NCBI RefSeq assembly: GCF_001011115.1
Contig: NZ_CP008874.1
Span: 496,001 to 560,000 of the forward strand
Length of the DNA: 64,000 nt
Origin: Halanaeroarchaeum sulfurireducens
GTDB taxonomy: Archaea > Halobacteriota > Halobacteria > Halobacteriales > Halobacteriaceae
Direction: 5' to 3'
A program made the translations under genes and the position numbers. Shown here in pieces: positions 2,586 through 46,845 of this stretch. Each line of letters opens with the position of its first letter. The first letter of the stretch is position 1. Under the pieces are notes generated by a model. It ran no database searches. It was not told where the DNA came from and worked only from the letters and a program-made list of their open reading frames with translations.

Positions 2586-2704
2586 ATACGCGCCGTCACT
2601 GGATGCCACTCTCCACCGATGACTGCACGTCTGGATATTCCACGGTTGCAATCCAAGTCTTTACAATACAGAGCAACATAACCAGTTATGGAGACGTTTC
2701 ACGA

Positions 2705-4024
2705 ATGTACGTCCACCGCACCTATCGGGCGAAAATCCGCAACCACCCTCAAGTGGAGCGGATGCTCGACCTACACGGGTGGAGTGCATCCAAACTGTGG
2801 AACGTTGCTAACTACCACTCCCGGCAAGTGTGGGAGGATACGGGCGAGATCCCCGACGACTCGGACTTGAAGAGCGAGTTGAAAGGTCATGACAACTACA
2901 AAGGACTCCATTCGCAATCCAGTCAGCGCGTTCTGGAGGAACTCGCTGAAGCCTTCAACTCGTGGTACGGTAAACGCAAGAACGACAGTCGAGCGAATCC
3001 GCCCGGCTACCGCAAGAAAAACTACTACGACGACAACGGCAACCGCGTCCACGAAGAACACCCGCGCAGTACGGTGACGTGGAAGCAGAAAGGTATTCGT
3101 CACGACCCAAAACACAACCGCGTCCGACTCTCAAAAGGTGCGAACCACAAAAACCACCCCAGAGACTGGGACTACATCCTCGTCGAATACGAGACTCGTT
3201 CCGAGGTTACGGTTGAAAACCTGCAACAAGTCAGGGCCGTCTACGATACGGCAAAGGGTCGATGGGAACTCCACCTCGTCTGCAAACACGAAGTTGACAC
3301 ACCCGACGCACCCGGCGAGGAGACTGCAGGCATCGACCTCGGTATCTGTAATTTCGCCGCCGTCGCGTACAGTACCGAGGAAGCCGACCTGTACCCCGGA
3401 AACCGCTTGAAGCAAGACGGGTACTACTTTCCCAAGGAAATCGCCAAGTGCGACGACTCGGGCGGGTCTGAGGCCACCCGACTCCATCACAAGTGGTCGG
3501 AGCGCCGTACGCACTTCTTCCACAGCCTCGCCAAACACATCATAGAGAGATGTCTTGAGCAGGGAGTGGGTCGCATCAACATCGGGAAGCTCAACGGCGT
3601 GCGTGAAGACGAGAACGGCGAGTCGAAGAACTGGGGTCGGCACGGCAACCTCGACCTGCATGGGTGGGCGTTCGACCGCTTCACGAAGATACTCACCTAC
3701 AAGGCAAAAGTCGAGGGTATCGAGGTCGTAGAAGTTCCTGAGCGTTACACGAGCAAGACGTGTTGCGTATGCGGTAGAGAAGATGATAGTCAGCGTGTTG
3801 AACGTGGCTTGTACGTTTGCGAGGAGTGTGACGCGGCGTTCAACGCTGATGTGAACGGGGCGGAGAACATCCGTCTAAACAGCAACAAGGAAAGTAACTC
3901 CGAGTCTTCGGCCAGTTTGGACGGGGATAGGAGTACCGGCTGGTTGGCACAGCCCGGAGTCTACCTTTACGACTTGTCCCACGGATTCTCACCGAGGGAA
4001 CAAGTGGTAGACTGCAAACCTTAA
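2705..4024 (+). CDS. tnpB: TnpB / InsQ family RNA-guided nuclease of an IS200/IS605 (IS1341-type) element
   Basis: From the ATG at 2705 the protein has 439 residues. An upstream in-frame start at 2603 would add 34 residues unlike the family. The TnpB layout is clear: a basic N-terminus, a RuvC-like core starting AGIDLGI (first Asp), a C4 zinc knuckle (CCVCG ... CEEC) and NADVNGAENI with the last RuvC Asp. The segment where TnpB usually has the second acidic residue reads INIGKLNGVRED, with no Glu/Asp in the standard place; the nearest acids are E and D five residues on. No tnpA lies nearby, so this is a TnpB-only element. TnpB proteins use an RNA from the element right end to cut matching DNA; activity here is not shown. 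Confidence 0.88.
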   Translation: MYVHRTYRAKIRNHPQVERMLDLHGWSASKLWNVANYHSRQVWEDTGEIPDDSDLKSELKGHDNYKGLHSQSSQRVLEELAEAFNSWYGKRKNDSRANPPGYRKKNYYDDNGNRVHEEHPRSTVTWKQKGIRHDPKHNRVRLSKGANHKNHPRDWDYILVEYETRSEVTVENLQQVRAVYDTAKGRWELHLVCKHEVDTPDAPGEETAGIDLGICNFAAVAYSTEEADLYPGNRLKQDGYYFPKEIAKCDDSGGSEATRLHHKWSERRTHFFHSLAKHIIERCLEQGVGRINIGKLNGVREDENGESKNWGRHGNLDLHGWAFDRFTKILTYKAKVEGIEVVEVPERYTSKTCCVCGREDDSQRVERGLYVCEECDAAFNADVNGAENIRLNSNKESNSESSASLDGDRSTGWLAQPGVYLYDLSHGFSPREQVVDCKP

Positions 4025-4121: not shown

Positions 4122-4266
4122 ATAAGCGCGAGTGTCGCGACCCGATTAGACAGTTGGCCAGTACTCAATTCGATTTCAGATGGTGCGGAAAGTTTGACTA
4201 ATACTGTCCGTCCCATATCAGAGTGGGCTCTGATGGCGTCCCGCTCACGTTCGTTTGCGAGACCAC

Positions 4267-4289
4267 CGCGACGAACGGAGTGAGTCGCG
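4267..4289. repeat. Palindrome with GAACGGAGTGA loop in the intergenic stretch 4122-4479
   Basis: CGCGAC and GTCGCG pair around the loop GAACGGAGTGA. Near-identical loops with different stems lie after both tRNA genes (36117-36127 and 46610-46620). The stretch 4122-4479, before rpsL, otherwise holds no gene I can support, only GC-rich sequence, a second loose palindrome near 4353-4380 and the probable rpsL promoter (about 4445-4475). Confidence 0.5.
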
Positions 4290-4479
4290 GGCCGACGAAC
4301 CGCCGAATGGGGGTGAGGACGGCTTTTTCCCCGTTTTTGCCTGCGAGGCGCGAACACAGTGAGCACCTCGAAAACGCGAGCGGTGACGGAACGGAACCGC
4401 GGGCAAGCCCGCGCGGCCCACAGCAAAAAGTGGGTGTAAAAGACCGAGTTTAAGTAGTTGCGTAGGGTATGACGGCTAT

Positions 4480-4908
4480 ATGCCGAACGGTAAGTACGCC
4501 GCACGCAAGCTCAAGAAGGACCGCCAGAATCACCGGTGGTCCGACACCGAGTATGCGCGGCGCGAACGGGGGCTGGGCAAAAAGTCCGACCCGCTCGAGG
4601 GTGCCCCCCAGGCCCGTGGTATCGTCCTGGAGAAGGTTGGGATCGAAGCGAAACAGCCGAACTCCGCCATCCGGAAATGCGTCCGCGTTCAGCTCATCAA
4701 GAACGGGAAACAGGTCACCGCGTTCGCCCCGGGCGACGGTGCCATCTCGTTCATCGACGAGCACGACGAGGTCACCATCGCTGGTATCGGTGGCGCGAAG
4801 GGCCGCGCCATGGGCGACCTCTCGGGCGTGAACTACAAGGTCGACAAGGTGAACGGCGTGGCGCTGCTCGAACTCGTTCGCGGAAACGCGGAGAAACCAG
4901 TCCGATAA
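4480..4908 (+). CDS. rpsL: Small ribosomal subunit protein uS12
   Basis: The 142-residue product is archaeal uS12, including the decoding-centre segment [20 protein letters not shown] with the invariant PNSA, and [17 protein letters not shown] near the C-terminus. It acts in the 30S decoding site. The ATG at 4480 starts [15 protein letters not shown], the expected archaeal start. rpsG begins two bases after the stop, so they are co-transcribed. In most haloarchaea nusA and the rpo genes lie directly upstream; here a TnpB element and non-coding DNA lie there instead. Confidence 0.97.
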
Positions 4909-20895: not shown

Positions 20896-21040
20896 GATTG
20901 TCTCGCGGGCGTTTGGTGGTTCAATCCGCTCGAGGCGGATCACATCCCGTCCCGAGGCTATCGGGAGCCCGCTGGAGCCCGCTCACCAGCGAGATATCGT
21001 ATGATCGGCGCGGTTCGACTAAAAGGACTTCGAATCGCGG

Positions 21041-36032: not shown

Positions 36033-36106
36033 CCGCCCTTAGCTCAGACTGGTAGAGCAGTCGACTGTAGATCGACTTGCCCCCCGTTCAAATCGGGGAG
36101 GGCGGA
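36033..36106 (+). tRNA. tRNA-Tyr (GUA anticodon)
   Basis: A 74-nt cloverleaf: acceptor stem CCGCCCT/AGGGCGG with discriminator A, D-arm with GGTAGAGC, anticodon stem GTCGA/TCGAC with loop CTGTAGA (anticodon GTA), and T-arm CCCCG-TTCAAAT-CGGGG. No intron and no encoded CCA. It is followed at once by the hairpin/duplication element described separately. Confidence 0.95.
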
Positions 36107-36242
36107 CTTTTGCTGCGAACGAAGTGAGCAGTCAAAAGTCCAACCGAGCCGATTTGAGCTTGTGAGTCGCAGTCCCGGAACGGCGCGAAGCGCCGCACGC
36201 CCGGAACGTCTCACAGCGTTCAAATCGGGGAGGGCGGACTTT
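36105..36242 (+). repeat. Post-tRNA element after tRNA-Tyr: hairpins plus 26-bp copy of the tRNA 3' end
   Basis: Hairpin 1 (36105-36140) pairs GACTTTTGCTGC, which starts in the last tRNA bases, with GCAG-T-CAAAAGTC around loop GAACGAAGTGA. Then an inverted T-loop copy CCGATTTGA (36149-36157) pairs with TCAAATCGG (36220-36228). Inside it GTGAGTCG (36162-36169) pairs with CGTCTCAC (36207-36214), one mismatch, and CGGCGC/GCGCCG closes a GAA loop. The last 26 bases (36217-36242) repeat 36085-36110 perfectly, i.e. the T-arm and acceptor of the tRNA. From 36243 to 36454 no gene is seen. Confidence 0.75.
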
Positions 36243-46459: not shown

Positions 46460-46544
46460 GCCGAGGTAGCCTAGCCTGGCCAAGGCGGTTGCTTCGAGAG
46501 CAACTGTCCGCAAGGACTCGAGAGTTCAAATCTCTCCCTCGGCG
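46460..46544 (+). tRNA. tRNA-Ser (CGA anticodon)
   Basis: An 85-nt class II tRNA: acceptor GCCGAGG/CCTCGGC with discriminator G, anticodon stem GTTGC/GCAAC with loop TTCGAGA (anticodon CGA), long variable arm (TGTCCGCAAGGACTC region) and T-arm GAGAG-TTCAAAT-CTCTC. No intron and no encoded CCA. It is followed at once by an element of the same design as that after tRNA-Tyr. Confidence 0.94.
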
Positions 46545-46660
46545 TTTTGTGACGAGCGAAGGCGAGAGAAACGCCTGAAGAGATTTGAACCCTATCAGTC
46601 GCAGCGGCCGAACGAAGTGAGGCCGACCGTCTGATTCCGGTTCAAATCTCTCCCTCAGCG
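46541..46660 (+). repeat. Post-tRNA element after tRNA-Ser: hairpins plus copy of the tRNA 3' end
   Basis: Hairpin 1 pairs GGCGTTT (46541-46547, beginning in the tRNA end) with AAACGCC (46569-46575). An inverted T-loop copy AGAGATTTGAACC (46579-46591) pairs perfectly with GGTTCAAATCTCT (46639-46651). Inside it ATCAGTCG (46594-46601) pairs with CGTCTGAT (46628-46635), one mismatch, and CGGCC/GGCCG closes loop GAACGAAGTGA. The 17 bases 46640-46656 repeat 46524-46540 of the tRNA T-arm and acceptor. From 46661 to 46776 no gene is seen. Confidence 0.75.
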
Positions 46661-46845
46661 GTTCTGGTGAACATGACGGCGAGCGGAGCGAGTCTTTCGA
46701 AAGTGAGAGCGCAGTCACAGCAACCGGATCGGGGCGTCCGACCGGCTCTCCATCACTCGTTTCCGTTCGGCGCATTGTGACGCCCCCACCAACGTCATTA
46801 ACGATCATTACCTTTATTTGGGTGGGGCCCATTGGAGGAGATACG

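Follow-up and report, generated by a model that had tools for sequence, protein, structure and literature searches.

About half of the tRNA genes of salt-loving archaea are trailed by one to five gene-less hairpin cassettes

What kind of element places a hairpin, and then a second copy of a tRNA's own 3' end, directly behind that tRNA gene? The question arises at tRNA-Tyr in the window, the 64,000-nucleotide stretch of DNA that was analysed. A sequence-only reading had described here a hairpin, an inverted T-loop copy, a core and a perfect 26-bp copy of the tRNA end, in that order. We found the order to be present and the repeat to be exact.

The tRNA-Tyr and tRNA-Ser loci

The host gene, tRNA-Tyr(GTA), lies on the plus strand at 36033-36107 according to ARAGORN (36033-36106 by Rfam RF00005), within a locus of 36033-36242. 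Its 3' end, from G53 (GTTCAAATC) to the discriminator base, constitutes the first repeat (D1; 36086-36106, +), the boundaries of which were defined over 84 copies. Hairpin 1 (L1; 36104-36141, +) possesses a GNA-type apex, CTGCGAACGAAGTGAGCAG, and its stem starts within the last tRNA bases. Its predicted DNA fold (-11.1 kcal/mol, z -5.3) beats 200 of 200 shuffles. The inverted T-loop copy, CCGATTTGAGC (D'; 36149-36159, +), was recognised by sequence and fold. It is followed by a core hairpin of family A (L2; 36160-36217, +), supported by fold and covariation, with AGTCGCAG at 36165-36172 and CGTCT at 36207-36211. The second copy of the tRNA-Tyr 3' end (D2; 36218-36238, +) has 0 mismatches and lies inside a 26-bp identity block, 36085-36110 being exactly repeated at 36217-36242. 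Core and tRNA-end copy together form one long hairpin (hairpin 2, DNA z -3.6), and the RNA fold of the whole Tyr stretch is below all 200 shuffles (z -5.0).

The same element order had been claimed after tRNA-Ser, and it was seen at 46543-46660. Here tRNA-Ser(CGA) (46460-46544, +; ARAGORN and Rfam) hosts a second array within 46460-46705. Hairpin 1, CGTTTT...AAACG (46543-46573, +), is weak alone, its DNA fold being no better than shuffles (z +0.5). Next come an inverted copy of the T-loop and T-stem, GAGATTTGAACC (46580-46591, +; sequence and fold), and a family A core hairpin with a GNA triloop apex (L2; 46592-46639, +), in which AGTCGCAG occupies 46597-46604 and CGTCT 46628-46632. The copy of the tRNA-Ser 3' end (46640-46660, +) has 1 mismatch. 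Hairpin 2 of this locus (46578-46655) has a DNA z of -6.2; DNA folding is better than that of shuffles in three of the four hairpins of the two loci, and the RNA fold of the whole Ser stretch beats all 200 shuffles. Sequence and a motif scan also suggest a possible decayed remnant of a further unit, with hairpin apex GGCGAGCGGAGCGAG, at 46675-46705 (+). Rfam returned tRNA matches only at both loci, with no other family above gathering score. Elsewhere in the window it matched an eL15-Euryarchaeota ribosomal protein leader (20913-20965, -).

Unit anatomy, covariation and distribution

Among 95 units parsed in three genomes, lengths were mostly 75-160 nt. The copied block comprises 21 positions, from G53 to the discriminator N73, at which 84 copies showed 93-100% identity to the host tRNA; identity is 90% at the base preceding GTTC and drops abruptly outside the block. 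When each copy was compared with every other tRNA of the same genome, 88 of 96 were closest to their own host tRNA. The inverted segment pairs, with covariation, with the T-loop and about three T-stem bases, and then the pairing fades. Beyond that it remains host-specific in a gapped test (own 12.2 versus others 9.7, p ~2e-11), the inverted copy being imperfect and its match to the host tRNA past the T-loop only statistical. A full inverted copy of the whole tRNA end was rejected, with a weak ungapped test and pairing that fades after three T-stem positions. Tandem-inversion duplication of the tRNA itself was ruled out because the cores are not tRNA sequence. The cores fall into recurring families, A (AGTCGC...CGTCT), B (CAGGGA...GACCGTG) and others, and an identical core type was found at tRNAs for 16 amino-acid types. 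A and B cores occur in a single orientation (31 forward, 0 reverse). T-runs are frequent after the last copy of an array.

Compensatory change in the core stems had been noticed between the Tyr and Ser loci (GTG/CAC versus ATC/GAT); it is real and extends to a set of 111 distinct A-type cores drawn from many genera. Of these, 99% and 98% keep the two base pairs adjacent to AG...CT, compared with 54% and 45% in a shuffled-partner control, and all (100%) form the second inner-stem pair, versus 48%; the shuffle ignores kinship among sequences that span 16 amino-acid tRNA types and dozens of genera. GC, AT and CG are all common at the flanking pairs. The core hairpins have asymmetric internal loops, and apices take the form GA-NN-loop-NN-GA, with GNA in 68 of the about 77 triloops listed and only five longer loops (tetraloops) listed. 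In DNA, GNA triloops give mini-hairpins of unusual stability; in RNA, GNRA tetraloops are the favoured form. As the apices are GNA triloops and not GNRA tetraloops, they hint at selection on folded DNA.

The genome that carries the window (2.21 Mb, two contigs, 44 tRNA genes scanned) contains 11 matches to the pattern AGTCGCAG-N-CGTCT-N-TTCRANTC and 0 to its reversed control, and all 11 lie downstream of a tRNA on the same strand. About 23 of the 44 tRNAs are followed within 300 nt by one or more copies of their own 3' end, often two or three in tandem; tRNA-Arg at 264788 was left out of this count, its apparent copy being a neighbouring complete tRNA-Arg gene. The paired T-loop pattern GATTTGAR-N30-60-GTTCAAATC was found in 219 of 242 Halobacteria genomes, and chance is excluded because the reversed pattern gave 0 matches in all 242. 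A scan of about 85,000 prokaryote species genomes, bacterial and archaeal, returned at least 80 loci, and all those listed are from Halobacteria. Most core occurrences (78 of 85) have a tRNA on the same strand no more than 400 nt upstream, and the copy has 0-1 mismatches in 72; of the other seven, most lie at the edge of a contig or next to a tRNA that is broken or unrecognised. Roughly every second tRNA gene of salt-loving archaea is trailed by one to five gene-less hairpin cassettes. The feature is real, widespread and structurally constrained. It survived the two checks put forward with the sequence-only reading, namely whether any other tRNA carries the structure and whether the pairings are kept.

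No units were found at tRNA-Thr, -Cys, -Asn or -Gln in any of the three genomes parsed, and there may be a target preference among tRNAs. Thr and Cys tRNAs have a T discriminator in common. The specific unit pattern gave two matches in IMG/VR, both due to chance on inspection. The generic T-loop pattern gave chance matches there, and none of the listed matches that were filtered carried the core or the mini-hairpin motif. A unit query against plasmid and phage collections returned nothing. A viral origin was rejected, there being no real match in IMG/VR, phage or plasmid collections.

Two further loci deserve mention. A broken tRNA-Phe of Natribaculum breve (locus 1-540), with an extra GC-rich hairpin insert just before the T-loop, lies in a tandemly duplicated block with A-type units. 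In genome G001, of the same genus as the genome that carries the window, two tRNA genes lie back to back (C2:41897-42056) on a 170-kb contig other than the main chromosome.

Turnover and comparison with known systems

Orthologous tRNAs in close relatives have either no unit or different units. At tRNA-Tyr, a unit is present in about a third of 30 genomes, with a patchy distribution within and across families. We compared G001 with G007, a genome from another genus of the same family. At tRNA-Glu(CTC), a 101-nt unit in G001 has no counterpart in G007, where the empty site is exact: what follows the unit in G001 can be aligned, from the first base on, with what follows the bare tRNA in G007. tRNA-Ser(TGA) has two units in G001 versus five in G007, with one core pair repeated, and at Leu(TAG), Val(CAC) and Ala(GGC) hairpin 1 is kept and the core is different. 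The number of units per tRNA ranges from 0 to 5, with differing core families.

An apparent island of about 55 kb that bears an integrase is located in tRNA-Arg(TCG) of G007 (C1:1166485-1221400). A unit about 95% identical to that of G001 tRNA-Arg(TCG) lies about 55 kb from its tRNA in G007, adjoining the integrase gene. In our reading, a classical island entered at the tRNA and carried off a unit that was already there. The island junction is the last ~13 bp of the tRNA, unlike the G53-discriminator junction of the units, and the locus shows how a classical scar differs from hairpin units. The view that the structure is neither a terminator nor a simple attachment site holds: the units are class-wide and modular, occur in tandem, covary and are specific to their tRNA, and they join the tRNA at a different place from the integrase island.

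Integron attC arrays are alike, by analogy only, in having tandem short units, imperfect palindromic ends with unpaired bases, a GTT-type end and a fixed orientation; an attC-like imperfect palindrome in fixed orientation was indeed found. However, integrons have gene cassettes, attI and IntI, whereas the hairpin units are gene-less, anchored at tRNA 3' ends and equipped with tRNA-specific copies. The units end in GTTCRAATC / GATTYGARC and lack the integron boxes GTTRRRY/RYYYAAC. Archaeal tRNA-targeting elements of the SNJ2, pNOB8 and SSV types (PMC8371274) resemble the units in that the end of the element rebuilds the tRNA and the insert is flanked by a direct repeat of the tRNA 3' end; for the units, both this repeat and an empty site were observed. 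By contrast, the units are ~100 bp long and gene-less (75-160 bp leaves no room for a gene, so no integrase is encoded within), use many tRNAs, are stacked, have the G53 junction and were not found in viral or plasmid collections. The Haloquadratum PATEs (PMC3119063), the closest of the small elements, are also short, non-coding and haloarchaeal, with palindromes near their ends and loss by repeat-mediated deletion. They are IS605-related and free of target duplication (PMC3119063), whereas the hairpin units have a ~21-bp tRNA end on both sides, and the Y1 transposase expected in genomes carrying PATEs is not a rule in those carrying units. Bacterial REP/BIME repeats and MITEs are likewise short, non-coding, multi-copy hairpins; the units differ from them in having no terminal inverted repeats of a known transposase, in lying strictly downstream of tRNA genes and in their host-specific copies. 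We file the units under no known family among those considered, because each fails at least one tested feature. The available text of an account of haloarchaeal partial tRNA remnants (PMC7921747) names the remnants and does not describe hairpin units, covariation or class-wide arrays. No description of the arrays was found in the open literature; subscription papers lay outside the search, so an earlier description is possible.

Mobile cassettes and rival explanations

We consider it probable, by a modest measure, that the units are non-autonomous DNA cassettes that fold into hairpins, insert at a T-loop junction, amplify in tandem and are lost via the tRNA-end copies. The chromosomal order reads as a tRNA ending in its T-loop and acceptor 3' strand, hairpin 1, inverted T-loop, core hairpin, and again T-loop and acceptor 3' strand. 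Because the junction between cassette and tRNA would be the 5' edge of the T-loop (G53), an inserted cassette would provide the working tRNA 3' end and shift the old end downstream, following the logic of tRNA-integrating elements shrunk to their ends. Sharp edges, at the T-loop on the left and the mature tRNA end on the right, are what such an insertion, restoring the acceptor strand, would be expected to leave. Arrays may grow by repeated insertion and by unequal recombination between tRNA-end copies, and recombination between those direct repeats could remove units precisely. Modules are also swapped: related genomes may have hairpin 1 in common at one tRNA and differ in the cores.

As the cassettes carry no gene, a trans-acting recombinase would be needed to mobilise them. 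The likeliest enzyme is a tyrosine recombinase with T-loop core sites as its substrate, perhaps in folded single strands, much as integron integrases do with attC. All 32 genomes tested contain tyrosine recombinases, so their involvement is possible but unproven; by inspection of these 32 genomes, their number does not rise with the number of units. IS200/IS605 TnpA was rejected as the mobiliser, its presence not tracking the units: G023, G093 and G144 lack PF01797 despite their 13-21 pattern matches, and G014 has 10 PF01797 matches and no units.

Stacking, core exchange, shared cores on many tRNAs and precise absence appear to fit small mobile or freely recombining cassettes, and the gain of new cores would require transfer. 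We infer that insertion, beyond loss and gene conversion, creates the pattern; the chemistry of the junction at the T-loop, the folding as DNA and the type of enzyme are likewise presumed. Precise absence can also reflect precise loss, which needs no special enzyme, since Haloquadratum is documented to lose sequence by repeat-mediated deletion between short direct repeats (PMC3119063). It also counts against the cassette model that a duplex circle of ~100 bp would be under strain. Of the three options offered with the sequence-only reading, a small mobile element using tRNA ends is the best supported, and it stands in part: patchy presence, the exact empty site and shared cores at many tRNAs favour it, and support is partial because movement itself was not observed. 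A distinctly doubtful variant takes the unit to be one turn of a dumbbell, in which D and D' would form a paired rod with hairpin 1 and the core hairpin as its two end caps. The excised form, either DNA or an RNA that is later copied back into DNA, would be a covalently closed, self-paired single strand of ~100 nt able to reinsert at T-loops. If true, it would be the smallest known class of integrating element, with the universal tRNA T-loop as its site.

The units may instead be cis-acting RNA trailers, transcribed with the tRNA, whose hairpins steer 3' processing, stability or termination and whose second T-loop/acceptor copy is a decoy or switch partner of the inverted T-loop. Each unit shares the strand of its tRNA and begins exactly at the tRNA's 3' end, and the last copy is often trailed by T-runs; the 31:0 orientation, strong covariation and asymmetric internal loops would suit RNA function, and RNA folds are far below shuffles at the Tyr and Ser loci. 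However, conservation at orthologous genes, expected of a cis RNA element for tRNA maturation, was not found, as orthologous tRNAs of close relatives have no units or different ones, and copy number varies from 0 to 5 with differing core families. The apices, moreover, are GNA triloops and not the GNRA tetraloops generally expected of selected RNA hairpins. The earlier suggestion of a processing signal fits poorly with absence at most orthologous tRNAs, and we regard it as unlikely, although still a fair rival.

Passive DNA dynamics are rather unlikely in our judgement. A founder repeat would have spread by gene conversion between tRNA genes without dedicated mobility, helped by tandem slippage between copies and by template-switch correction, through which palindromes stay matched. 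Near-identical units in tandem and blocks that recur agree with this, palindrome correction could mimic covariation, and repeat-mediated deletion is documented in haloarchaea (PMC3119063). But spread between tRNAs that share only a T-loop of ~10 bp demands very short homology, and the tRNA-specific inverted copy (p ~2e-11) and sharp block edges suggest a defined junction. It is highly improbable that the units are scars left by ordinary integrative elements, in which case each would be what remains of a provirus or plasmid that entered at a tRNA and then lost its interior. Integration that duplicates tRNA 3' ends is common in haloarchaea (PMC7921747, PMC8371274), and partial tRNAs beside full copies are noted in Haloferax gibbonsii (PMC7921747). 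Against this reading, the units have a standard modular anatomy with cores that recur across tRNAs and genera, and 78 of 85 cores are within 400 nt of a tRNA; IMG/VR, phages and plasmids gave no real match; and the true island at tRNA-Arg(TCG), which displaced a unit already in place, has its junction within the last ~13 bp. The idea of a retained scar is disfavoured on two grounds: large elements bearing these ends were not seen, and arrays at orthologous tRNAs turn over.

A large share of the tRNA genes across an archaeal class has dynamic hairpin arrays that are annotated at most as partial tRNAs. If mobile, the cassettes would be among the smallest mobile DNA units known, would explain many partial tRNA remnants and would give integrases additional targets behind tRNAs. 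Should they function as RNA, they would represent a widespread unrecognised layer of tRNA maturation. Both options, mobile DNA and RNA function, are directly testable by Haloferax genetics.

The mini-hairpin CGARCGNAGYGAG has 50 copies in the genome that carries the window, versus 6 for its reversed control. It was rejected as a tRNA-only motif, about half of the 50 copies being located elsewhere. Copies away from tRNA arrays include clusters at 279.6 kb and 2003.5 kb. At 4255-4400 of the window, two hairpins have GA-NN-loop-NN-GA apices, CGCGACGAACGGAGTGAGTCGCG and GAGGCGCGAACACAGTGAGCACCTC. They lie between an ORF that by eye resembles an IS605-type TnpB (2603-4024) and one that by eye resembles ribosomal protein S12 (4480-4908); such hairpins are therefore not confined to tRNAs.
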